Positions 29,386 to 56,757 of a stretch of 59,427 nt of DNA are shown here, in pieces. The notes beneath the pieces are model-generated. The model ran no database searches, was not told where the DNA came from, and saw only the letters and a program-made list of their open reading frames with translations. Both the position numbers and the translations under genes were made by a program. The stretch covers positions 1 to 59,427 of the forward strand of contig NZ_QKAP01000083.1 of the NCBI RefSeq assembly GCF_003247215.1. The letters are read 5' to 3'. How positions within the stretch are numbered: the stretch's first letter is position 1; each line of letters starts with the position of its first letter. The stretch comes from Malonomonas rubra. Its GTDB lineage: Bacteria > Desulfobacterota > Desulfuromonadia > Desulfuromonadales > Geopsychrobacteraceae.

Positions 29386-29856
29386 CTAATTGACAAATTG
29401 ATATTTAAAGAGTCTTTTAACCCCATCCGCAAGTGACGCACTGATTTCAAAATTGTACTTTCCTTTGCGGTCAAGATTTATATCGGCACCGAAACTTCCA
29501 TCCATAGCCAATAGCGAAACCGTTTTAGCGATTGTCCCATCAGGCCTCATGACTGTTATTTCTACTTTACCGTTCTCTAGAAACTTCCCGGATGAAATTT
29601 CCTTAAAAGTAACCATAATGTGATGGGTCTTTTGTAGCCCGTACTTGGCCATCAATTTTCGCACATCGTTCAAATAAGCGACGCTTTTAACCCCTGCAAC
29701 TTCATTCGCTCCTAGCATATACTTGTCTCCAGCAGGCGACATCCCGGGCAGGTCAGAAAGTTCTTTCGGCTGCCATTGTTGCAATTTGTCTCCGGGGAAG
29801 CCCAGAACTGGAACCGCTATTAATATTAATAGCAAAAGAAAATATGTTGATTTCAT
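29386..29856 (-). CDS. small secreted protein, YtkA/FixH-like beta-sandwich
   Basis: The protein has 156 residues from the ATG at 29856 (AGGAGTTGG in front; an upstream TTG at 29862 is less likely). A Sec signal peptide (STYFLLLLILIAVPVLG) is followed by a mature part with THHIMVTFKEISSGKFLENG, then EITVMRPDGTIAKTVSLLAM and DGSFGADINLDRKGKYNFEI. This matches small periplasmic proteins with a FixH/YtkA-type fold. The H-H before the first strand and M residues at strand ends would suit copper or another metal. It follows the metal-sensor-like gene and may be co-transcribed with it. Confidence 0.6.
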   Translation of the reverse strand: MKSTYFLLLLILIAVPVLGFPGDKLQQWQPKELSDLPGMSPAGDKYMLGANEVAGVKSVAYLNDVRKLMAKYGLQKTHHIMVTFKEISSGKFLENGKVEITVMRPDGTIAKTVSLLAMDGSFGADINLDRKGKYNFEISASLADGVKRLFKYQFVN

Positions 29857-29910
29857 GGCCAACTCCTAAATCTGGCCATAGCTTAGCCATCCCTCATCGG
29901 TCTTTTATAG

Positions 29911-30495
29911 TTACTGGAAAAGATCTTCGAGATTTTTAACGCCACCGCCTGAGCGAGCCTTGTCAAGCTGCTCTTTGGTTAACACTTTGCGTGCAGCGTT
30001 GAACGCTTGTAGGTGACGGACTTGAATATCGGCTTCCAGTTTTTGAGCTTTGCGCACTAAGTCTTCAGCGTCTTTCAGTGACCAATCGTCACTTGCCAGC
30101 AACTCAGCCAACTCCAGGCGGACAATTTTTACTTCTGCAGCGGTGCGGATATTTTCTTTACGACAATCTGAATGGATCGTTTTGAGCTCAGCAATTTGTT
30201 TTTCTGAGAGTTCTAGTTCCTTAGCTTGACCGAGGAAAAACAAATGTTCTTTCCGACAATCCATCATGTTCGGACCCATCATGTTCGGACCCATCATGTT
30301 CGGACCCATCATGTTCGGACCCATCATGTTCGGACCCATCATGTTCGGACCCATCATGTTCGGACCCATCATACATGAAGGTGATGATGACTCTCCTCCT
30401 TTATGGTGAGCCTCGTGCATTGAGGCAGAAAAGCTTATGCTAGCAATAAGCACTAAAAAAGAATTCATCAGAAGCATCATTATAGCTTTTTTCAT
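29911..30495 (-). CDS. periplasmic Spy/CpxP-like protein with MMGPN repeats
   Basis: The protein has 194 residues from the ATG at 30495, chosen for AAAGGAGAACAT directly in front. A signal peptide (AIMMLLMNSFLVLIASISFS) precedes a histidine-containing linker and seven copies of MMGPN. A helical C-terminal half has LSEKQIAELKTIHSDCRKEN and LVRKAQKLEADIQVRHLQAF, the LTxxQ/heavy-metal-resistance layout of Spy, CpxP and ZraP-like proteins. These are periplasmic chaperones or metal sensors. The methionine-rich repeats suggest copper binding (inference). The minus-strand text TGGCATGAGCTTTGA near 30565 is a weak sigma54-like match with one wrong base. Confidence 0.7.
   Translation of the reverse strand: MKKAIMMLLMNSFLVLIASISFSASMHEAHHKGGESSSPSCMMGPNMMGPNMMGPNMMGPNMMGPNMMGPNMMGPNMMDCRKEHLFFLGQAKELELSEKQIAELKTIHSDCRKENIRTAAEVKIVRLELAELLASDDWSLKDAEDLVRKAQKLEADIQVRHLQAFNAARKVLTKEQLDKARSGGGVKNLEDLFQ
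30265..30369 (-). repeat. seven perfect 15-bp tandem repeats encoding MMGPN
   Basis: The plus-strand unit CATGTTCGGACCCAT occurs seven times head to tail with no change, 105 bp in all. Because the unit is a multiple of three, loss or gain of copies alters protein length without a frameshift. Identity at every base, including synonymous positions, points to recent expansion. Confidence 0.95.
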
Positions 30496-30661
30496 ATGTT
30501 CTCCTTTAGGCGACATTAAGTGTTTAACCAATATCATATCATCTTATAATCAAAGCTCATGCCAGAATAAAAAACTATTCATGTCAGTGCGTTACAGATA
30601 GCACTGGGGAAAAGAGTAAAGAATTTGAAGAATATTCTCCATCGAGTTTGAATTTTCTATA

Positions 30662-46207: not shown

Positions 46208-46931
46208 CAAAGCAAAAGGCTTGTTTATTACCGGTACCGATACCGGTGTCGGGAAAACACTAGTGGCAGCAGCTTTGACCAAGATGCTGGTTGACAAAGG
46301 GGTCCAGGTCGGAGTTATGAAACCGGCGGAGACGGGAGTGAACCAACCGGAGCAACTGGGGCTGGACGGCAATCTTTTAAAGTGGGCGGCGCAGAACCAG
46401 CAGACCGACGATTCGATCTGCCCATATCGCCTAAGGGCACCACTGGCTCCGTCCGTGGCCGCTTCGAAAGAGCGGATCCGTATCGCCTACAGTCGACTGG
46501 TTGAACAGGCTAAAAACACGATCAATGAGTACGATTTCACCATAATCGAAGGAGCAGGCGGCCTGATGGTGCCACTGGCGGGAGGGTTTTTGATGGCCGA
46601 CTACGCCCGAGCTGTCGGCTTGCCACTGGTGGTAGTCTGTCGTCCCAATCTGGGTACAATCAACCACACGCTGTTGACCCTTTTCTCAGCGCGCAACCTT
46701 GACTTGCCGGTTGCCGGTTACCTGATCAACAATATGCCTTCAGAGCAGACAGTAGCCGAAGAAACTGTTGCTCACAGCCTCGCGTCTTTGACGACTGACG
46801 AACTGCTTGGTGTGCTGAACCAGGCCACGGGGAATGCACAAGAGAAAGTAACACAGCTGGCCGAACAGATTTCAAGGTTGAAGACCTACTCCCTCCTCGC
46901 GCGCCATCTGCCACCGTTTTTTTCCTGCTAA
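46194..46931 (+). CDS. bioD: dethiobiotin synthetase
   Basis: This is 245 residues from the ATG at 46194, overlapping the bioB end by 14 bp with GAGGTC in front. The P-loop is ITGTDTGVGKT near residue 14. KPAETGV, IEGAGGLMVPL and VGLPLVVVCRPNLGTINHTL are further BioD motifs. It forms the ureido ring from 7,8-diaminopelargonate, CO2 and ATP. Its stop overlaps that of the convergent zinc-ribbon gene by two bases. Confidence 0.95.
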   Translation: MSANNKAKGLFITGTDTGVGKTLVAAALTKMLVDKGVQVGVMKPAETGVNQPEQLGLDGNLLKWAAQNQQTDDSICPYRLRAPLAPSVAASKERIRIAYSRLVEQAKNTINEYDFTIIEGAGGLMVPLAGGFLMADYARAVGLPLVVVCRPNLGTINHTLLTLFSARNLDLPVAGYLINNMPSEQTVAEETVAHSLASLTTDELLGVLNQATGNAQEKVTQLAEQISRLKTYSLLARHLPPFFSC

Positions 46932-47230
46932 CCAAGCTCTTTGCGTTTTTGACCACAAACAGGGCAATAATCCCAACGACTGCGCAACAAGACCCCGCAG
47001 CCACAGGTGTTCTGCTTTGCAAGGTTACGATTTTTTGCTTTACTTGAAAACAGGAAAACCACTGCGATAGCGATACCGAGCAGCAACAGTTTGGCCGGTA
47101 TGCTGAATCTCGTGAGGGTCGCTACAGTACAATACCCGGCATAGTATGACCAGGTATTGTAACCGACGATCACCAATAGCAATAACGATGCTGCCGCGTA
47201 CATGATTCTGGCTTTTTGTTTTACGTTCAT
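46928..47230 (-). CDS. small membrane protein with C-terminal zinc ribbon
   Basis: The protein has 100 residues from the ATG at 47230 (AGAGGGG in front), overlapping the upstream stop as ATGA. Two membrane helices (MYAAASLLLLVIVGYNTW; LLLLGIAIAVVFLF) are followed by a zinc-ribbon tail with CGCG and CPVCGQKRKEL. It is the last gene of the metal-related cluster. The function is unknown; a role in assembly or metal delivery at the membrane is possible. Confidence 0.65.
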   Translation of the reverse strand: MNVKQKARIMYAAASLLLLVIVGYNTWSYYAGYCTVATLTRFSIPAKLLLLGIAIAVVFLFSSKAKNRNLAKQNTCGCGVLLRSRWDYCPVCGQKRKELG

Positions 47231-47481
47231 TTGCCCCTCTTCTGTATCGAACCGCAATACGGGCAATGTTTATGACTGATCAGTTTGCCACGATGGCAAG
47301 TGGAGCATGCCTCGCGCAACTGAAGCTGGCAATACGGACAAACCATCGCGTCGATATCGATCATGCGCTGGCATGCTGGGCAGCTGATTTCCATAACATC
47401 TTCGATTTGTCGCTCCGATTCCAGTTCAGCTTGCAGCAACCAGATCAGAACTGCCAATATGATCAATAACAGTAAAACCAT
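47227..47481 (-). CDS. membrane-anchored double zinc-ribbon protein
   Basis: This 84-aa protein has one N-terminal membrane helix (VLLLLIILAVLIWLL), then CPACQ, CPYCQ, CSTCH and CPYCG: four CxxC motifs for two zinc ribbons facing the cytoplasm. It lies four bases behind the ABC ATPase stop and probably belongs to the same complex. No closer family is recognised. Confidence 0.7.
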   Translation of the reverse strand: MVLLLLIILAVLIWLLQAELESERQIEDVMEISCPACQRMIDIDAMVCPYCQLQLREACSTCHRGKLISHKHCPYCGSIQKRGK

Positions 47482-47484
47482 ACT

Positions 47485-48192
47485 CTACCCGACACGAGCG
47501 TATAGCTCTTCCCGTTTGCAAACATCTTTTGCGATAAGTCCATCACGCAACAGCAAAGTCCGATCGAAATAACTTCTCACTTCATCGTTATGGGTGACCA
47601 TGACAATTGTCTGCCCCTCCTTATTCAGAACACTCAGTAATTGCATTATCTCACGGCTGGTTCCGGTGTCGAGGCTGCCAGTCGGCTCATCAGCGAGAAT
47701 CAGTGGTGGCTCGTTGACCAGAGCGCGAGCAATTGCGACTCGCTCCTGTTCGCCACCGGAAAGTTGATTCGGCAGATGGCCCGCACGATGTCCCAAACCA
47801 ACCCGTTGCAACACAGAATGAGCCATTTCCTTTTTTTGTCGCGAATGAATCTTCTTTACCGCCAACGGCAACATTACGTTTTCTTCTGCCGTCAAATAAG
47901 GGATCAGGTTAAAGGCCTGAAAAACAAATCCGAGATATTCTCGTCTAAAATCAGCACGTTTCTCGCTGTTTAATTGATAAAGGTCAATTCCATCAACCAC
48001 CACGGCACCTTCAGTCGGATGGCACAAACCGCCGAGGATCGACAACATGGTGCTTTTCCCCGATCCGGACGGTCCCATAACCCCGACAAAAGCTCCCTCT
48101 TCGATCTCCACACTGATCCCGTCCAGCGCCTTCACTTCAACCGCATCGCTGTTATAGACCTTGTGCAAATTTGAGAATTGAACAAACGACAT
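47485..48192 (-). CDS. ABC transporter ATP-binding protein (MacB/LolD type)
   Basis: This 235-aa ATPase has Walker [11 protein letters not shown]-loop VFQAFNL, signature [15 protein letters not shown], Walker [14 protein letters not shown] and H-loop MVTHNDE. The group pairs with FtsX-type permeases that move lipoproteins, work as mechanotransmitters or handle metals. It serves the permease encoded just upstream. Confidence 0.92.
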
Positions 48193-48201
48193 ACGGTACT
48201 C

Positions 48202-49359
48202 CTATAATGAACGCAAAGCTTCGGTCGGATCGAGTCGACTGGCCTGCAGGGCCGGATAAAAAGAAGCTATACAACCAACGACCAAAGCTAGCAGAATCGC
48301 CCCAGCCCCCAGTGCAGGATCCCACAGCGTTTTTACTTCCTGCTCGGTCATAAAGGGAAGAATCGCTTCTGTTGCCCCCATCCCGGTGAGAAAGCCGAGC
48401 AACCCAGCCAGCAAACTAACAGCTGAAGATTCCATTAGAATCAGCCGCATGACGTGGGAGCGCCGGAATCCCAACGCCCTGAATATGCCTATTTCACGAG
48501 TTCGCTCGTTGACTGCCCCCATCATGGTGACAAAAACGACAAGCGCACCGATTAGTAGAACGACGCCAGCTATCACCAAAGAGAAGGTGCGAAACTGCTC
48601 CAGACTGTGCATGCGGGTTTTAACCACCTGCTGGATCGCGCTGACCTCAACACCCGGTAGAACCGAACCGATCTGCTTAACCATATCGGTAACAGGACAT
48701 TCGGAACAAAGCGCTGCCACCTCGACCAGTGAAACTGTGCCGTTTTTATTCAGTAGCTGCTGGGCCATCGGCAAAGAGCCGATCAGGAGCTGATCGTCCT
48801 GAGATCCGGTTTTGGCCAACACACCACTTATCTGGAACTCTTCCCCGGCGACAGTGATTTTGTTACCCACCTGCAACCCCAATTTCTGCGCGACCGCATA
48901 CCCGGCGACCAGCTGCCGGTCATTGGTCACTGCCAGACCATCAATACTCCACCAACGTTTGAGGTGAAACTCTTTGTCAATGTCGACGCCCATCAACATC
49001 ACCCGCTCTTGACCTATTTCTACCGCTCCCAGCACCTTCGGAGCAACCGCTGCTATATTGCGGTTATTCGGAATCATCATGATCTTTTCCAGATCTACCT
49101 GCTGAATTTCCGTGCTATCGACGGAAACTCCCCCCAGGGTAATCCCTCCATAGCTAAGCGAGAGGTTGTCGCTTCTAGGCGTGATCAGGATGTTGGCACC
49201 GTAGTTCTCCATTTTGTGCTGAATGTCTGCCGTGAGGGCGCTCGACAAAGAAACCAATGTCACGACCGTGGCAACACCGATCATCAGACCGAGTACTAAA
49301 AAAGCCATGCGGCTTTTCCGTCGACGCAGATTATTGAAAGCGATTGATTCCAACTTCAC
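48202..49359 (-). CDS. FtsX/MacB-type ABC permease
   Basis: This 385-aa permease has one N-terminal helix (RMAFLVLGLMIGVATVVTLV), a periplasmic MacB-PCD domain (about 40-250) with a CSEC pair (residues 218-221), and three C-terminal helices (for example FSLVIAGVVLLIGALVVFVT). ERTREIGIFRALGFRRSHVM is the FtsX coupling loop. It resembles the two permeases of the Campylobacter P19 locus, though only one copy is present. Confidence 0.88.
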   Translation of the reverse strand: MKLESIAFNNLRRRKSRMAFLVLGLMIGVATVVTLVSLSSALTADIQHKMENYGANILITPRSDNLSLSYGGITLGGVSVDSTEIQQVDLEKIMMIPNNRNIAAVAPKVLGAVEIGQERVMLMGVDIDKEFHLKRWWSIDGLAVTNDRQLVAGYAVAQKLGLQVGNKITVAGEEFQISGVLAKTGSQDDQLLIGSLPMAQQLLNKNGTVSLVEVAALCSECPVTDMVKQIGSVLPGVEVSAIQQVVKTRMHSLEQFRTFSLVIAGVVLLIGALVVFVTMMGAVNERTREIGIFRALGFRRSHVMRLILMESSAVSLLAGLLGFLTGMGATEAILPFMTEQEVKTLWDPALGAGAILLALVVGCIASFYPALQASRLDPTEALRSL

Positions 49360-49368
49360 ATCAGCCCC

Positions 49369-49884
49369 CTACCCACCGAAATACTTTGCGCCTTGCAGAA
49401 TATCACTGTCATTGATGACCAGTTGTTTCCCTTCAATCCGACGGTTCAGCGGCGCTGGGTTACAGCCCCCTTTCACCACGTTGATCAGGTCGGAGCGAAA
49501 CTGCATACCGCAATTGTTGCAAACCATTGAAGTCGCTTCCTGCCGATAACCCTTTTTCTCCCGATAGCAAACATCACAAGCATCAAACGCAGCCCGCATC
49601 ACCCCATCAACACTTTTGATGACGAAAAAGCTGATATCTCCTGTGTCCGACGCATACTTGAAGTAGTGTGCATTGCCATCACTTATTTCATTAATATCGA
49701 GTCGCACTTCACCGTTGTTGCTGTTTACCATGACATGACCATCAGAAGCGCCTTGGAAAAGGAAAAAGCAACCACCACCAATGGCGAGCACTGCAACGAC
49801 AAGAACCGCTGCGATAATTCCGCCAAAACCATTTTTCTTTTCCTGATCAAACATCTCTTTTTTAGCCTGACGTTGCCTACTCAT
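49369..49884 (-). CDS. DUF2318 membrane protein, predicted metal-binding
   Basis: This 171-aa protein has one membrane helix (21-44) and a periplasmic DUF2318 domain with C103/C106 (DACDVCYREKKGY), C122/C125 (VCNNCGMQF) and C141 (GGCNPAP). DUF2318 proteins occur in iron uptake loci with P19 and FTR1, where they probably transfer electrons or metal. Here it is placed between the HMA-SurA fusion and the permease. AGGAGATGTG precedes the start. Confidence 0.85.
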   Translation of the reverse strand: MSRQRQAKKEMFDQEKKNGFGGIIAAVLVVAVLAIGGGCFFLFQGASDGHVMVNSNNGEVRLDINEISDGNAHYFKYASDTGDISFFVIKSVDGVMRAAFDACDVCYREKKGYRQEATSMVCNNCGMQFRSDLINVVKGGCNPAPLNRRIEGKQLVINDSDILQGAKYFGG

Positions 49885-49930
49885 TCACATCTCCTGATTT
49901 TTTTTGGTTTTTAAAAACTCATCAGAGCGA

Positions 49931-50794
49931 TCAGCAACAACTACCACCGCACCCGCCCGAGCCAATAGCTTGTTTCAATTGTGGGTCATAAATGATGACA
50001 GGTGAATTATCGAGGAGTGACCGATACCATTGGTCAAGAACCTGTTGCCGCTGTTGCTGATCATTTGTTTTGCCGATCACGAACTGATCGATATTGCGGC
50101 TGATCACCATATCTTCCTTAAGTTGTCGGCGAAAATTTTCAATTGAACCGTAACGACTCTGAATATAAGAACCAATGTTCGGCATCCCTTTTTGCATCTC
50201 CTCAATACGCAGTTCCACTTCACCCGGTTGAACAACAACTAGGTTTTTCTCAGCTGCTTGTAATAACAGAGTCTTTCGCATAATCGTTTGCCAGACTTGG
50301 GCAAGAGCCTGTTGTCTACCTTCCATCTTTTCTTCAGGACCGGAATTTTTCAGAAACTGATCAAGCTGCTGCTCAAAATCCTGCCGCGAAATAAGTTGAT
50401 CGCCGATCCTGGCAACATAATTGGCAGCAAGACGGGTTTCTTCGTTCTGAAGCAAATGATATTGCTCTGTCGAGAGAAGCTGTTTAACAGACGCCGGATA
50501 GCCCGCTTCAGTAATGGTATCGGTCAACTGCTTCGGTGTAACCAGCAAAGGATCGTATGCGACCTTCCCGATTCCAGTTGTTACGCTTATGTCGATTTTT
50601 TCAACACCAGAAACTTTGTCCAGGGCCTTAGTGATATTGTCCACGCAGGCACCGCAGGTCATATTCTCAACCTGAAGTTCTGCTAAGGCTAAATCAGACT
50701 GTTTCGTGATCCGGGTCGTAAAGCCTGCGTACACAGATGCTCCAACCACGGCAACAACACTTAACAAAATAACGACAATGATTTTTAACTTCAT
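49931..50794 (-). CDS. exported HMA-domain / SurA-like chaperone fusion
   Basis: This 287-aa protein starts with a signal peptide or anchor (IIVVILLSVVAVVGASVYAG), followed by a heavy-metal-associated domain (36-105) with NMTCGAC (C47, C50). A SurA-N-like helical part (about 115-265) has VARIGDQLISRQDFEQQLDQ and QALAQVWQTIMRKTLLLQAA. The protein ends in GGCGGSCC, a further metal-binding cluster. Copper or another soft metal is the likely ligand. A fusion of HMA with a SurA-type chaperone is unusual. It is the first gene of the cluster. Confidence 0.75.
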   Translation of the reverse strand: MKLKIIVVILLSVVAVVGASVYAGFTTRITKQSDLALAELQVENMTCGACVDNITKALDKVSGVEKIDISVTTGIGKVAYDPLLVTPKQLTDTITEAGYPASVKQLLSTEQYHLLQNEETRLAANYVARIGDQLISRQDFEQQLDQFLKNSGPEEKMEGRQQALAQVWQTIMRKTLLLQAAEKNLVVVQPGEVELRIEEMQKGMPNIGSYIQSRYGSIENFRRQLKEDMVISRNIDQFVIGKTNDQQQRQQVLDQWYRSLLDNSPVIIYDPQLKQAIGSGGCGGSCC

Positions 50795-50970
50795 CCCAAC
50801 TCCTCATTCTGCAAGTAAAAAGATTCCCCCTGCACAGATCAGGATTCATGCCAAAAGCGAAAAGAGCTTCAATAGGCTGATTTCAAATATTTTTTGGGAT
50901 TAAACGCTACACGACTTGAGGAATATTCTTCAGACAGATTGTAGACTTTTCTACAGTACAATACGGTTGG

Positions 50971-53900
50971 CTAGGATGCGTACGAAGACCCTATCGTTTC
51001 GATCGTCTCACGTATTTTCGTGAGAAGAAGAAACGGTGAAATAGGTTTATTCAATAAGATGATGTCGTCGCCGACCAACCCCTGGTCGCGTAAAGCGTTG
51101 AAGGTATAGCCACTGATAAAAACCACGGGAACATGGGTTCGTTTACGGATTTCCTGATAAAATTCAATCCCTTTTATCCCAGGCATAACAACATCGGAGA
51201 GAATCAGACTCAACTCCTGCTGCTTGACATCCAGCATCTTCAGAGCCGAGTCAGCACAGTTACTGGTTACCACCTGATAACCAACAGAAGTAAGAATGTT
51301 ATAGGTCGTTTCCAGAACCTGAGGGTCGTCTTCGACTAGGAGAATGGTTTCGTTGCCACCCGGCAGTTCTGAAGTGCTTTGCGAATATTTCTTCAGTGGT
51401 CTTTGGGTCGTCATGGGTAAATAAATTTTGAAACAGCTACCCTTCTCATGGGCACTGTCAACCAAGATATATCCCTTATGCTGCTTGACAATCCCCCAAG
51501 CAATCGCAAGTCCCAACCCAGTCCCTTTCCCGGTATCTTTGGTGGTATAAAAGGGGTCAAAGATATTTTGCAAAACCTGGTGCGGGATTCCAACACCGGT
51601 ATCCGTGACTGTAATCAGAGCATAATCGCCCGGCTCTCCGTAGCCATGTACCTTACAGAAGTCCTTATCAATTACCGTCCGTGAGGTTGTGATGGTCAGC
51701 GTGCCTCCACCGGGCATGGCATCCCGTGCATTGGTCGCCAGATTGACCAGCACCTGCTCGAGCTGTGAGGTGTCGGCCAAAACAAATAACTGCTGCTCTG
51801 CAAGGTGAAGATTTTTGTCAATATGTTCTCCTATCACTTTGCCGAACAGATCTTGGACCTGCAGTATCAGGTGGTTCAAGTCGACCGGCGTCGAAGGCCC
51901 CGTCTTTTTACGGCTGTACGCCAGCAAACCGTGAGTCAACTTGGAACCGCGTTCTGCCGCTTCAGCAATCTTGCTGATTTTCGGCAATAAGCCTTTATCG
52001 TTTGCATACAGGGATTGCAACAAACCAGCGTAACCGGAAATTACTGTCAGGATATTATTGAAGTCATGCGCGATCCCGCCAGTTAAGGTACCGATCGCTT
52101 CCATCCGTTGCGAATGTTGAAGCTGTTTTTCCAACGTTCGGCGGCGGGAGATGTCAATAAAAGTAATAACCCCACCGATCAACTCTCCATCGCGCATCAT
52201 TTGATGCCCCCAGAACTCAACCGGTATTTCCTGTCCATCCTTTTTCAACAGAACCCCATCGGAACCGGTAACCTTCTCCTCGCTCTCTATTGCCGCCATG
52301 AAAGGGGAATCACTGTCACCGCCATTCAGCTCGCGCAGTTTCTCGTTATCAACTAATTTGCAGAAACTTTGGCCGACGATTTCAGACTCATCATTGTAAC
52401 CCAACATACGCAAAGTCGATGGGTTACAGAATACGCACTCGCCGTTCAGGTCAATCCCGACAATCGCCTCAGCCGTCGAATTGAACAGAGTGCGTAGCAT
52501 TTCTTCACTGTGTGCAAGTTCCTGCACATAATCGAGTCGCTCACACTCGGCAGCTGCGCGAGAAGCGATTACCGAAAGTAATTCTTCAACGTGGGGCACG
52601 GCCAGCATAGGCTTGCAAGAAAACGCGCTGACGGAACCAAGAATTTGTCCTTTGTGTCCGAACATCGGGATACCGATAAAGCTTTTTATGTCAGCCAGAT
52701 TAAATAGGCTCAAAGCGGGGAATCGACCTGAAACACCTTCGGTATAGAAGCAGTAATTGCCATCAAGAATTTCCTCAAAGGGTGTACTGGAAACCTGCAT
52801 CGTAAAAGGAGTTTTTAACTGACCATGCAGGCAGCTGGCCTGCATTTCCAAGCGATCCCCCACAATTATGCCGATACTAGCACCATCGGCGTTCAACCAG
52901 TCGCACAGGTTTTGGACGATTTCATCCAGACAATCCTGCCCAGTTAATCCAACCGTGCTACGCACCAAAGTTTTGATTGAGGACTCATATTTCTCTCGCA
53001 ACGTGATGTCGCGAGCTACCGAGAAATAAACCTGCCGGCCTCCCAGTTCGAATAACTGACAACCGATTTCTACTGGCAACCAATCGCCGTCAGCAGTCAG
53101 CAATTCGGTTTTGAACAATGCCTGGTCATTTTCCCAAACTTCTTCGAGTATCTGTTCGAAGGTCTCCGGCTCTTCCTGGGCAACGCGATTCAGGTCATAA
53201 GGAGACAAGGCCTTAAACTGGCTTCTTGTATAGCCAAGCAGGCGGCAGGCAACATCGTTTACCTCGATGAAAGTCCCGGGCAAACCGTCGGAGAGGCGCT
53301 TTGAAACAAGGATGGCGTCGGTCACACCGTTAAACAAGCGAGAAAAATACTCCTGGTTTTGCATCAACAAGGTTTCCCGCTCATCGATGTTCTTACGCAT
53401 CTCGCGAAAGCTATCTGAAAGCCGGTCAATCTCTTGATGATTTCCATAAGGCAACGGGTGAGAATAATCGCCTTCGGCAAAAGATTCAGCACTTCTCGCT
53501 AGATCAGATATCGGTCGGACAATTTTCCATGCCAACCGATGCGCCCATACCGCCGCTAACAAAAAAGCCAGAAACAGTGAGCTGATCAATATAATTCTCA
53601 GTCGCCAGACAATACTCGACAGTCCGGCATGTTCCTGCCCATATAGCATGATCCATTCGACCGACGGAATCCTAATTGCTGTACCTAGATAGGACTTGCC
53701 ATTAAGTTCATAGTTGGTGGTTTTAACTATGCCGTCCAAGATCGACTCGACCGGTTGCAGATACTTCAATTCGGCGAGGTCAGGCATTCCTGCCTGAGGC
53801 AATTGAAAGATCATCCGCCCCTGTTGATCAAGCAACAACAGGTGGGCTGGCTGCCCTCCTGGCAGCGGGATAAAACGCTTATACAATCGCTCAATATTAA

Positions 53901-54432
53901 TGTAAGCGAAAATCAGACCCACCTCACTGCGATGAGTCAGAGCAACCGAAACTCGGCCATCGAGTTTTGAGAAAAACGCCCTGGACCAGCTGGGTTCGAC
54001 ACTGTCGTTGACATCCTTATGTTGTGGCAGCAATGAAAAATCTTGACCGATAAAGTCAAACGGACTGCGGCGAAGATGATTCGGTAAGCCGGTAGCAGCA
54101 ACCCGACCATCCGGGCCAAGGACAAAAACCGAATCGACGCTGTTGCTGCCATTGACGAGCTGATCGAGATAATCATTACACTTGCCCAGTTCGGAATTGA
54201 AAAGCTGGCAATATCGAGCTATTTCACGAACCAGTAGCTGCGGTTCTTGCAATTCCAGAGATATTTGAGCGGCAATCGATTCAGCGGTGGAATGATTTTG
54301 GCGGGAGAGGCTAAATTTCGTTTCTCGGGTAAAAAAGTCGAAAGATACAATACTGACAATCAGCAACGGCAGAATCGATACAACCACAAATCGCCAAGTG
54401 AGAGCATCTTTTAGGCTGTAATCGATCTTCAT
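50971..54432 (-). CDS. hybrid sensor histidine kinase
   Basis: This 1153-aa membrane sensor has TM1 (about 13-32), a periplasmic Cache-like domain, TM2 (about 283-303) and a HAMP segment (ARSAESFAEGDYSHPL). A PAS domain (362-480), a GAF domain (490-630, ADGASIGIIVGDRLEM) and a second PAS domain (645-770) follow. The HisKA domain has phospho-acceptor H789 (GGIAHDFNN), and the HATPase has NLATNARDAMPGGG, VTDTGVGIP and GKGTGLGLA. A receiver domain has D1080 (LILSDVVMPGIKG). No output domain or regulator gene lies beside it. The ligand is unknown. A 6-bp hairpin at 50940-50955 lies behind the stop. Confidence 0.9.
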   Translation of the reverse strand: MKIDYSLKDALTWRFVVVSILPLLIVSIVSFDFFTRETKFSLSRQNHSTAESIAAQISLELQEPQLLVREIARYCQLFNSELGKCNDYLDQLVNGSNSVDSVFVLGPDGRVAATGLPNHLRRSPFDFIGQDFSLLPQHKDVNDSVEPSWSRAFFSKLDGRVSVALTHRSEVGLIFAYINIERLYKRFIPLPGGQPAHLLLLDQQGRMIFQLPQAGMPDLAELKYLQPVESILDGIVKTTNYELNGKSYLGTAIRIPSVEWIMLYGQEHAGLSSIVWRLRIILISSLFLAFLLAAVWAHRLAWKIVRPISDLARSAESFAEGDYSHPLPYGNHQEIDRLSDSFREMRKNIDERETLLMQNQEYFSRLFNGVTDAILVSKRLSDGLPGTFIEVNDVACRLLGYTRSQFKALSPYDLNRVAQEEPETFEQILEEVWENDQALFKTELLTADGDWLPVEIGCQLFELGGRQVYFSVARDITLREKYESSIKTLVRSTVGLTGQDCLDEIVQNLCDWLNADGASIGIIVGDRLEMQASCLHGQLKTPFTMQVSSTPFEEILDGNYCFYTEGVSGRFPALSLFNLADIKSFIGIPMFGHKGQILGSVSAFSCKPMLAVPHVEELLSVIASRAAAECERLDYVQELAHSEEMLRTLFNSTAEAIVGIDLNGECVFCNPSTLRMLGYNDESEIVGQSFCKLVDNEKLRELNGGDSDSPFMAAIESEEKVTGSDGVLLKKDGQEIPVEFWGHQMMRDGELIGGVITFIDISRRRTLEKQLQHSQRMEAIGTLTGGIAHDFNNILTVISGYAGLLQSLYANDKGLLPKISKIAEAAERGSKLTHGLLAYSRKKTGPSTPVDLNHLILQVQDLFGKVIGEHIDKNLHLAEQQLFVLADTSQLEQVLVNLATNARDAMPGGGTLTITTSRTVIDKDFCKVHGYGEPGDYALITVTDTGVGIPHQVLQNIFDPFYTTKDTGKGTGLGLAIAWGIVKQHKGYILVDSAHEKGSCFKIYLPMTTQRPLKKYSQSTSELPGGNETILLVEDDPQVLETTYNILTSVGYQVVTSNCADSALKMLDVKQQELSLILSDVVMPGIKGIEFYQEIRKRTHVPVVFISGYTFNALRDQGLVGDDIILLNKPISPFLLLTKIRETIETIGSSYAS

Positions 54433-54526: not shown

Positions 54527-55096
54527 CTAAAGCTCCTTACTTATTTTAAATTTAAGGCCCTGAAACGAACAGCGCACACCGTCCGGCAAGATTTCATCAA
54601 TGTGGGCACCATCAATTTCGGTCCCTTCCATAACCGGCAAATCGTTGATAACCGCTAGACGTGCTCCAGGATCCTGATGATAAACAATCTCGTCCACGCG
54701 CAAAGGTGGAATCTCGACTGTTGCCAACTGCTTAGTCTCAGTGTTTTTGTTCACCGGTGCTTCACCACGCTCTCCATCAAGTTTCACATGGTGGTCAATA
54801 CTTTCCTCTACTGCAATCGACGGCTCGAGTTCATTATGTTCAGGTACCTGAGTTTCAGGCTGTACGATCGGCACATGTTTCTCCATTTGCGATCCGGTTT
54901 CCGTACTCAACAGCCAGAACCCTGCACTGGCCAGGACAAAAATAAAACTGATGCCCAGAACATAAATCGGCCAACGAGCCGTTTGCGGCTGATCATAGTT
55001 GCGCTTTAGAATATCGTGCGCCAAATCAACACTGCCACCTCCTATCGCCGCATTTTCATCTTCGACTTTACGTAGTGCTTTCAGGATAGAGCTCAT
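54527..55096 (-). CDS. GspB-like general secretion pathway protein
   Basis: This is 189 residues from the ATG at 55096, overlapping the upstream stop by one base (TGATG). SSILKALRKVEDE is the conserved cytoplasmic start of GspB. One membrane helix (WPIYVLGISFIFVLASAGFW) follows, then a variable linker, and the C-terminal GspB domain with RLAVINDLPVMEGTEIDG and GVRCSFQGLKFKI. With GspA it helps insert the type II secretion secretin into the outer membrane; the other gsp genes are not in the window. Confidence 0.85.
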   Translation of the reverse strand: MSSILKALRKVEDENAAIGGGSVDLAHDILKRNYDQPQTARWPIYVLGISFIFVLASAGFWLLSTETGSQMEKHVPIVQPETQVPEHNELEPSIAVEESIDHHVKLDGERGEAPVNKNTETKQLATVEIPPLRVDEIVYHQDPGARLAVINDLPVMEGTEIDGAHIDEILPDGVRCSFQGLKFKISKEL

Positions 55097-56757
55097 CACT
55101 TCCCCTCTTCCTTCAGCCGCGGAATCTTGTAGCCAGCCTGACGATAAAGCCAAAACAAGGTATGATTTCCGACTCGCCCATCAGGATCCAGCTGTACCTT
55201 TCGCTGAAATTGAGTTACGGCATCGATTGTCGTTCGATCATAGACACTGTTGATCGGCACATCAAACTCCTGTAAACCGGAAAGCAGTGTCTGAAGTTTG
55301 CTTACATCCGACCCAATTTTTCCTGGCTGGTCAATAAAAGAAATTTCTTGATAATTGATATAAGGCAAAAAAGCCTTGCCGAACCAGATTTCCTTGAGAG
55401 CAGCAACATCAAGCCAGCCAGTTGAAGTGATAGCCGGACTGATATTGAACTGCCCGTCGAGGTATGCGTTTAACGACAAAAAACGCTTGCCGACAACATT
55501 CGGCAACGAGAGTTCGAGTACAACCGGCGCATCCAACAGCAACAACTCATCAGTCGTGGCCTGTAATTCCAGCAGGTCAAAACCAGCTCCAGCTAACGCG
55601 TTTGTCATCCCACCGCGAGTTCTGATGGGCGCAAGTTCCCGAATTTCTTTCCCCCACGCCTGGGCGACCTCCCGTAGCGATTGTTCAGCAGAAGCTGAAA
55701 CCCCAATTGCATCGATCTGGCGAACCAGCTCGGCAACCTGCTCGGGTTTGACGGTTGCCTCGGTCAAAACAGGTTTCTCAACGGGGACAGCCTGCAGCTC
55801 TGTGGCAACTGCGGCCGGCAAATCCGTTTCGGGCAATTGCGGATTGGTCTCCAGCATAGACACCGGTATAAAAAAGAGAGCCAGAAAAAGCACCATTGCA
55901 CCAGCCACTGCGATAGGACTTATGGATTTTTTTGCTTCTATTTTGTGTTGTCGCAACTCATCCTGCGCGATCTTTACATCCTGCCTACTAACCTTTTGCG
56001 CGTCCCGTCCATATGCAACCAACAACGCACGGTCACAGAGAATATTAATCAACCGAGGAGTACCCTGTGTGTAGTTGTAAATCTGCGTTAGCCCTTGTGG
56101 ATCAAACAGAGCGGGGCTGGTATTACCAGCAACCCGTAGCCTATGCTGTATATAGTGAATCGTATCCTCCTTATCCATCGGCTGCAGGTGATAGCTGACG
56201 GCCACCCGCTGCTTCAATTGGCGCAAATCCTGTCGCTGCAGCAGTTCATCGAGCTCTGGTTGCCCAACCAGAATCATCTGGATAAGCTTTTCCGTTTCCG
56301 TCTCCAGGTTCGACAACAACCGAAGCTGTTCCAAAACCTTGGGATCAAGATTCTGGGCTTCGTCTACGACCAGTACCACCGTTTTTCCCACTTCTCTTTG
56401 CTGCAGCAGATAATGATTAAGCGACTCGTGCAATGTTACCAGGTTCGAACTTTCCGGGTCGAACACGATCCCGAACTCACGATGGATAATCTGCAATAGC
56501 TCAATGGCTGTCAGGCAAGGGTTGAAAATCAACGCTACGCAGTATCCCCCCTCTTCCAACTGACTGAGCAAAGTTCTGAGCACAGTCGTCTTGCCGGTGC
56601 CGATTTCACCAGACAGCGACATGAATCCGACCCGCTGCTGAATGCCGTAAAGCAGATGAGCAAAGGCTTCCTTATGAATTTTACTGAGGAAAATAAAGCG
56701 TGGATTGGGAGTAATGTGGAACGGCTTCTCTTCAAAACCGTACATCTTTAGATACAT
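55096..56757 (-). CDS. GspA/ExeA-like AAA ATPase with peptidoglycan-binding domain
   Basis: This 553-aa protein has the N-terminal ExeA start (MYLKMYGFEEKPFHITPNPR), P-loop SGEIGTGKTT near 50-58, Walker B VVLVVDEAQNL and a sensor region GTPRLINILCDRALL. A membrane helix is at 280-303, and a periplasmic part ends in a peptidoglycan-binding domain (VPINSVYDRTTIDAVTQFQR, DPDGRVGNHTLFWL). It couples ATP use to secretin assembly through the cell wall. It is divergently placed from glgP. Confidence 0.9.
   Translation of the reverse strand: MYLKMYGFEEKPFHITPNPRFIFLSKIHKEAFAHLLYGIQQRVGFMSLSGEIGTGKTTVLRTLLSQLEEGGYCVALIFNPCLTAIELLQIIHREFGIVFDPESSNLVTLHESLNHYLLQQREVGKTVVLVVDEAQNLDPKVLEQLRLLSNLETETEKLIQMILVGQPELDELLQRQDLRQLKQRVAVSYHLQPMDKEDTIHYIQHRLRVAGNTSPALFDPQGLTQIYNYTQGTPRLINILCDRALLVAYGRDAQKVSRQDVKIAQDELRQHKIEAKKSISPIAVAGAMVLFLALFFIPVSMLETNPQLPETDLPAAVATELQAVPVEKPVLTEATVKPEQVAELVRQIDAIGVSASAEQSLREVAQAWGKEIRELAPIRTRGGMTNALAGAGFDLLELQATTDELLLLDAPVVLELSLPNVVGKRFLSLNAYLDGQFNISPAITSTGWLDVAALKEIWFGKAFLPYINYQEISFIDQPGKIGSDVSKLQTLLSGLQEFDVPINSVYDRTTIDAVTQFQRKVQLDPDGRVGNHTLFWLYRQAGYKIPRLKEEGK

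Follow-up and report, generated by a model that had tools for sequence, protein, structure and literature searches.

One of the known systems close to the locus analysed here is the Fet/P19 iron system. In Campylobacter jejuni, fetMP-fetABCDEF (FtrABCD in Brucella and Bordetella) likewise combines a DUF2318 protein with an FtsX-type permease and a MacB/LolD-type ATPase, alongside FTR1 (FetM) and P19 (FetP). The FtrD, FtsX and ATPase families correspond to FetA, FetB/C and FetD, and deletions of these impair growth at low iron, according to an excerpt of PMC10783030; in a passage of PMC6083913, DUF2318 is taken to indicate the P19 iron system, with which it is "almost always" found. A tie to copper is found in the abridged text of PMC4938975, where the CsoR copper regulon of Firmicutes includes DUF2318 proteins and an HMA-DsbD_2-DUF2318 protein. 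In the 59,427-nucleotide stretch of Malonomonas rubra DNA analysed here (contig NZ_QKAP01000083.1, the whole of which is called the window), a six-gene cluster on the minus strand (46928-50794) carries the FtrD/DUF2318, permease and ATPase families together with an exported protein that joins an HMA domain to a SurA-like part (HMA-SurA). Judged from its sequence features, we read the cluster, with a probability of roughly 60%, as a periplasmic Cu(I)/Ag(I)-handling machine that would work with the CusCBA efflux pump and be switched on jointly with it; the gene set read as an iron marker is probably about copper in this lineage.

The six open reading frames follow in the operon order HMA-SurA, FtrD/DUF2318, FtsX permease, ATPase, ZR1 and ZR2 (Table 1). 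All of them lie where the original prediction had placed them, and Pfam and NCBIfam matches bore out its description of a P19-like set led by an exported HMA-chaperone fusion. HMA (5.5e-14) and SurA_N_2 (1.6e-08) are found within one chain with an N-terminal membrane anchor, the second protein matches FtrD-like/DUF2318 (2.1e-31), the permease FtsX (4.8e-22) and MacB_PCD (3.6e-19), and the ATPase ABC_tran (8.8e-35), its nearest NCBIfam model being LolD (6.9e-68, below the cut-off of that model). In the case of the two proposed membrane zinc-ribbon proteins, ZR1 shows a double zinc ribbon (1.9e-08), whereas ZR2 has no significant Pfam or NCBIfam family and its zinc ribbon is a resemblance only. 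The genome (99.5% complete, 3.75% contamination, 149 contigs) contains a single copy of the DUF2318 gene. The iron permease and P19 had been described as absent from the cluster, and they were not found elsewhere either: neither P19 (PF10634; 1 of 14 control genomes positive) nor FTR1 (PF03239; 4 of 14) has a match anywhere in the genome.

The cluster is not a member of the Fet/P19 system, since five of the seven features listed for that system were tested and it has none of them, but it may still work like the FetABCD part. FetA has eight predicted helices and a YHS domain, whereas the FtrD of the window is a protein of 171 amino acids (aa) with one membrane-like stretch and no YHS match. The two permeases of Fet/P19 (FetB and FetC) are represented by one, which carries a CxxC, and HMA-SurA, the zinc-ribbon proteins and a promoter in common with CusCBA are additions. 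FetE/FetF-like thioredoxins were sought in the six genes, in the flanking kinase and in bioD, and nothing in this set matched them; in 22 upstream regions, no Fur-like box scored above shuffles. The cluster might alternatively assist iron uptake in the manner of Campylobacter Fet, some other importer taking the place of FetM/P19. This would fit the shared families and their low-iron phenotype; the lack of P19, FTR1 and Fur-box matches, the promoter in common with CusCBA, and a permease and FtrD that differ in type from the P19-linked ones make it very unlikely. The locus is related to P19 loci yet distinct from them, as had been proposed.

In respect to the other known systems, the Firmicutes CsoR regulon also ties DUF2318 to HMA domains and copper, but there the fusion is with DsbD_2, the regulator is CsoR, and FtsX and ATPase genes are not mentioned in the available part of PMC4938975. 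No description of the present system was found in the papers searched, and the claim that it is undescribed stands apart from this partial precedent. The cluster itself lacks the RND pump, adaptor and channel of CusCBA/SilABC, with which it is connected by the promoter architecture in its own genome, by neighbourhood in part of the relatives, and by the Cu(I) methionine triad of the linked CusA proteins. MacB, LolCDE and FtsEX (the mechanotransmission ABC family) have the same permease and ATPase family and layout, but the window permease has a Cys pair, and there is no MacA-like gene among the six.

The neighbourhood survey proposed with the original prediction was run, and the cluster of HMA-SurA and FtrD recurs; it is not a chance grouping and is more than one odd locus. 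The search for HMA-SurA in 41 genomes, the own genome included, gave some match in 32 and one spanning at least 160 residues in 21. Twenty of the 25 wider loci of the order have all six genes in the same order (tblastn, E up to 0.01). Among the other five, L046 and L047 lack FtrD, L055 and L056 lack a zinc-ribbon match, and L044 ends at a contig edge; in L053-L056 the HMA protein is too short for SurA, and two of these four are without the zinc-ribbon gene. One single-contig genome (G013) has two whole-cluster copies (L042, L043) about 74 kb apart. Among cultured relatives, Geothermobacter hydrogeniphilus HR-1 (L079) has the cluster.

Over 394 genomes of the phylum, DUF2318 is above the family cut-off in 103 and P19 in 13, with an overlap of 8 (one weak and broken by a stop). 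The other 95 of the 103 DUF2318 genomes have no P19 match, at variance with the use of DUF2318 as a P19 marker. One hundred DUF2318 places of the phylum were taken, of which 95 gave an FtrD match by our own profile and 5 fell below threshold, with 12 weak places left out. Locus counts rest on six-frame profile matches, since some loci had no FtrD called, and neighbourhood counts refer to 7.5 kb on the same strand. The seven P19 loci all have FTR1, at least two FtsX matches and a long FtrD frame (330-528 aa), and none has HMA or Cus genes. The 88 P19-less loci have one permease in 67 cases, HMA in 20, CusA or CusB in 31, and either HMA or Cus genes in 38. A further, named set (the best 80 of 420 loci, many on short contigs) comes mainly from Desulfuromonadales and Desulfobulbaceae-type bacteria, with some Nitrospirota, Acidobacteria, Deferribacteraceae and Spirochaetes, and its available flanks show HMA in 38, Cus genes in 6 and P19 in none. 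ResB-like genes are found near five of these 80 loci, and an M24 peptidase-family gene upstream in seven. The order and named sets overlap, and the 198 loci correspond to 184 distinct ones.

The permeases were compared at the C218/C221 position in 168 distinct sequences. The CxxC is present in 144/144 distinct single-permease systems with a short FtrD, in 4/5 single-permease systems with a long FtrD, and in 1/3 permeases of short-FtrD loci with several permeases, while it is found in 0/16 permeases of long-FtrD loci with at least two permeases, including all 14 P19-linked ones. Hydropathy places the pair between membrane helices 1 and 2, a region that we take to be periplasmic, as in MacB-type permeases; no such Cys pair is seen there in E. 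coli LolC, LolE or MacB. The P19-less clusters mostly form a type of their own, in which FtrD is short and the single permease has a periplasmic CxxC. In a quick tree of 85 phylum-set permeases, a rough guide with several long branches, the number of label changes required is 2 for P19, 4 for HMA and 12 for Cus; the Cus neighbourhood would therefore have been gained or lost many times.

The upstream region of HMA-SurA shows, in ten aligned loci, two GYAGAATATTCTRC-type palindromes 21-23 nucleotides apart (degenerate in the window) and, 76-100 nucleotides beyond them, a sigma-54-like element TGGCAY-N5-(C)TGA, with a largely invariant TTGGCA...TGA core. The TTGGCA/TGGCA element and the paired palindromes are kept in 10/10 of these loci; among 13 further upstream regions, 6 have the boxes and the TGGCA...TGA element and 7 do not. 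When the own genome was scanned for box 2 and promoter together, the pattern gave four sites and its reversed form 0. The four sites precede the cluster operon, a CusCBA-YTK operon on contig C37, the Met-rich/YTK operon within the window (29386-30537), and the gene of a small repeat protein (contig C65). Paired boxes and TTGGCAT...CTGAT lie upstream of the C37 operon; a second CusCBA operon of the same genome (contig C96) has no site in this pattern scan. The cluster operon appears to share its sigma-54-like promoter architecture with the CusCBA and Met-rich operons, and this supports the earlier suggestion of metal handling or maturation, perhaps for copper, the CusCBA in question being of the Cu(I)/Ag(I) type. 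The common promoter also offers a ready handle on the metal signal.

The pattern gave 26 sites in 17 of the 41 genomes (2 for the reversed pattern), of which at least four precede HMA-SurA (G000, G007, G009, G031) and four precede CusC (G000, G007, G009, G022). Over the 394 phylum genomes there are 33 sites in 27 genomes (1 for the reversed pattern). A second box with no more than 4 mismatches accompanies seven of the 33 (this cut-off was chosen once the scores had been seen), and six of these seven precede HMA/FtrD, CusC or YTK genes (three in the own genome, three in other orders of the class). The site at L330 (G035) has a good second box and none of the labelled genes downstream. A looser pattern occurs upstream of FtrD in 32/198 loci (26/184 distinct), of which none is linked to P19; simple shuffles give an expected count of 0.0.

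On C65, a kinase and an NtrC-type regulator containing Sigma54_activat and Fis-type HTH domains are encoded divergently from the repeat-protein gene. Both have relatives (48-55% for the regulator) that adjoin FtrD clusters in five other loci (L233, L076, L106, L109, L126), three of which (L106, L109, L233) also show the promoter pattern. We infer that this regulator may bind the paired boxes; the co-regulator of the cluster and CusCBA is probably an NtrC-type regulator acting on sigma-54. The kinase beside the operon in the window (50971-54432) is a different, hybrid kinase for which no link was established. Sites for Fur, CsoR, CueR, MerR, CusR, Zur, NikR and ArsR-like regulators were also sought by consensus upstream of 22 HMA-SurA genes, and none was above simple shuffles. 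A small exported repeat protein with units like DRVGINQYGELASNDST and no Pfam match has the same promoter upstream at L365:5218-5535, and also in L357; its gene runs divergently from the kinase/NtrC-type regulator pair.

Table 1. Positions of the cluster genes, promoter elements and related features in the window.
Feature	Position	Strand	Description
HMA-SurA protein, 287 aa	49931..50794	-	membrane anchor 1-27; MerP/CopZ-like HMA with MTCGAC (C47, C50); SurA-like ~109-278; flexible Cys tail GCGGSCC
Short FtrD/DUF2318 protein, 171 aa	49369..49884	-	one membrane helix and predicted Rieske-fold domain; CxxC...CxxC...C
FtsX/MacB-type permease, 385 aa	48202..49359	-	CxxC (C218, C221) between membrane helices 1 and 2
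LolD/MacB-type ABC ATPase, 235 aa	47485..48192	-	Pfam/NCBIfam
ZR1, 84 aa	47227..47481	-	one membrane helix and double zinc ribbon; 8 Cys in CxxC pairs
ZR2, 112 aa	46928..47266	-	two membrane-like stretches and C-terminal CxC...CxxC; 40-base overlap with ZR1
Upstream palindromic box 1	50941..50954	-	consensus GYAGAATATTCTRC, 2 mismatches
Upstream palindromic box 2	50918..50931	-	3 mismatches to GYAGAATATTCTRC; 23 nucleotides from box 1
Sigma-54-like promoter element of cluster	50838..50853	-	TTGGCAT-N5-CTGAT
Met-rich operon gene 1	29911..30537	-	exported; repeated MMGPN units; Metal_resist PF13801 27.5 bits, just below cut-off 29.2
YTK-family exported protein	29386..29862	-	relatives directly after CusA or in FtrD cluster; no Pfam match
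Met-rich/YTK operon promoter	30549..30660	-	boxes 30647-30660 (4 mismatches) and 30627-30640 (2); sigma-54-like element 30549-30564

The neighbourhood of the P19-less loci points to the same pump. A heavy-metal RND match above cut-off occurs in 62 of the 80 DUF2318 genomes examined (of 103), with about one or two genes per genome among the matches listed; on this estimate, a Cus neighbourhood would arise by chance in under 1% of 15-kb stretches, compared with the 31/88 observed (0/7 for the P19 loci). Along its length, the linked CusA of L072 shares 51% identity with plasmid SilA; records labelled only as CusA/CzcA family range from 59% to 27-32% identity to it among the matches listed, in a search limited to 5000 records. 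The methionine triad M573/M623/M672, which binds Cu(I) in CusA structures (excerpt of PMC8092243), is intact in 17/18 linked copies covering all three positions (33 were extracted, 15 being too short, and two of the 17 look like one genome); the exception reads MAH. Q/A/E and H/V/E occupy these positions in the CzrA and NczA pumps (passage in PMC3637150). The CusA of the own genome, in the CusC-CusB-CusA-YTK order on C37, reads MMM. Two more loci connect FtrD with copper-type genes. Besides its P19 locus, G246 has a second FtrD (L267), flanked on one side by an HMA protein of 483 aa and on the other by an HMA-bearing protein of 835 aa, the size of a P-type ATPase; in Geothrix paludis (L123) HMA proteins of 81 and 712 aa are found 3' of the cluster.

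In the HMA-SurA protein, C47 and C50 are invariant in 29 aligned rows and C286 is kept in at least 90%. In the structural model, an HMA domain (36-107) is connected with a largely helical region, and the GCGGSCC tail is disordered (residues 281-287 with a predicted local distance difference test score, pLDDT, below 50). The first 50 fold matches are all to the HMA part, namely copper ATPase domains, copper chaperones, MerP and the copper chaperone for superoxide dismutase (CCS), so that the SurA-like part rests on Pfam. Eukaryotic CCS consists of an HMA domain, a client-related domain and a short Cys tail. HMA-SurA has the same domain order, which is an analogy and not kinship, and differs in its SurA-like middle domain and in being membrane-anchored. 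A second SurA fusion, in which a zinc-ribbon-like motif and a membrane helix precede the SurA-like part, is encoded directly upstream of FtrD in nine loci (L227, L239, L260, L288, L289, L291-L294); SurA is profile-confirmed in six of them (five by our own profile, one by Pfam), and three of the nine lie beside Cus genes.

The strongest rival starts from this layout of HMA domain, chaperone and flexible Cys tail, with CCS among the fold matches and SurA recurring in the second fusion: the cluster would supply copper to one particular cuproprotein of the periplasm or outer membrane, with HMA-SurA acting in a CCS-like manner and the ABC pair powering release, as is reportedly proposed for NosDFY/NosL. 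The promoter partner of the cluster is an exporter, which speaks against such a maturation machine, and we consider it unlikely. The two SurA fusion forms, the numerous CxxC motifs and the zinc-ribbon proteins are also compatible with a response to envelope thiol or folding stress, in which SurA, the CxxC proteins and the ABC pair would repair mis-metallated or disulfide-damaged envelope proteins and copper would be a mere trigger; the Cu-type HMA domain and the promoter in common with a Cu/Ag-type exporter indicate the metal itself, and this explanation appears improbable.

Five Cys residues of FtrD are invariant in 52 aligned rows, among them C103, C106, C122 and C125, which form CxxC...CxxC. 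The model built from these rows has pLDDT values of 90-98 per block over residues 51-170, and its best match among known structures is toluene-4-monooxygenase ferredoxin (Z 9.9, root-mean-square deviation 2.9, 101 residues). All 50 listed structural matches are Rieske-fold proteins, as judged by title or recall. Foldseek matches are weaker (best E 9e-4, TM about 0.4 by query length), and no solved structure was matched by sequence. Rieske proteins proper have the ligand set CxH...CxxH. This set is not found in the 52 FtrD rows, which have CxxC in both loops instead; C103 and C122 are 19 residues apart, which we take to be the distance that separates the ligand loops of Rieske ferredoxins. The FtrD domain is predicted to be a Rieske fold with Cys replacing the His ligands; among the papers searched, none contains both "FtrD" and "Rieske".

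If the cluster handles Cu(I)/Ag(I) together with CusCBA, the HMA domain of the anchored HMA-SurA would take up Cu(I) in the periplasm, its SurA-like part would hold either a client that is unfolded or damaged by metal, or an acceptor of the metal, and its flexible C-terminal Cys tail would hand on metal or thiols. The membrane-anchored FtrD, with its Cys-ligand Rieske fold, could serve as a redox or metal relay, and the periplasmic CxxC of the permease could be the next station. In MacB and FtsEX, cytoplasmic ATP drives a conformational change outside, and the FtsX/ATPase pair may act in the same manner. Surplus metal would exit via CusCBA, whose genes lie close to the cluster in some relatives and at another place in the own genome. 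The order of hand-off along the Cys sites is a guess.

Several observations weigh against this picture. Fifty of the 88 P19-less phylum loci have neither HMA nor Cus genes nearby, and because of this the copper claim does not extend to the whole class. The -12 element reads TGA in the genus of the window, where GC is usual. Of 11 pattern loci inspected, 3 precede CusC, 2 or 3 precede small exported repeat-like proteins, and the rest precede nothing linkable, as is the case for the sites in G024 and G005 and one of those in G018. Of the 33 phylum sites, 26 have no good second box, and none of these precedes HMA/FtrD, CusC or YTK genes; the late choice of the cut-off for this box counts in the same direction. 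Given the contamination estimate of 3.75%, it is binning or assembly that assigns the contigs to this genome. Other soft metals can also be bound by an HMA domain with CxxC, and the direct contact of HMA-SurA, FtrD and FtsX is putative.

Should the copper reading be true, many iron annotations would be mistaken, periplasmic copper machinery of a new, ATP-driven class would be at hand, and the role of FetABCD would become testable via simpler relatives. A wider version, which we regard as doubtful, is that the FtrD-FtsX-ATPase module is at heart a copper-handling machine and not an iron one, its all-Cys FtrD passing electrons or Cu(I) to an ATP-driven CxxC permease. In its P19-less forms, the module is accompanied by chaperones of the Cu(I) type, by pumps for copper efflux and by peptides that resemble copper leaders. 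P19/FetP reportedly needs a copper site for iron transport, and in P19 loci the module would serve this site, which would explain why the substrate of FetBCD stayed unclear.

Exported Cys-rich small proteins are encoded directly upstream of FtrD in 29 loci (e.g. L102:5580-6035, L128:4005-4457, L226:6613-7026), 26 of them clusters without HMA. They are poorly conserved save for the Cys positions and the C-terminal end, approximately P-x-(L/V/I)-Y-(L/I)-xxxx-(L/F)-(L/I)-(I/C), a conservation that is partly due to their choice by Cys count and end pattern, the latter first seen in an unselected listing. None of the 29 matches DUF2946 (PF11162, CutF/CruR) at E up to 1, and no Pfam or NCBIfam family matches more than one member. 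Their layout recalls the copper-sensing leaders CutF and CruR (excerpts of PMC9426467 and PMC9973294), and they are candidates for a possible new nascent-chain sensor.

The tandem MMGPN repeats of the Met-rich operon are encoded at about 30260-30375 of the window (minus strand), and the Metal_resist-like protein that contains them is, by its sequence, likely a methionine-rich copper binder. Members of the YTK family (L072:8474-8980, L071:1443-2144 and window 29386-29862) are exported, some being Met/His-rich, and are found after CusA and in FtrD clusters; one of three members scanned has a weak YtkA-like Pfam match below cut-off. The genes bioB/bioD beside the cluster in the genus of the window, and kdsB-pyrG-kdsA and XrtA-ATPase/GspB elsewhere, were taken as location markers only. 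In the window, an XrtA/PEP-CTERM-type ATPase gene (below the model cut-off) and a GspB-like gene (54527-56757) adjoin the kinase upstream of the cluster, and they are also neighbours in several relatives.

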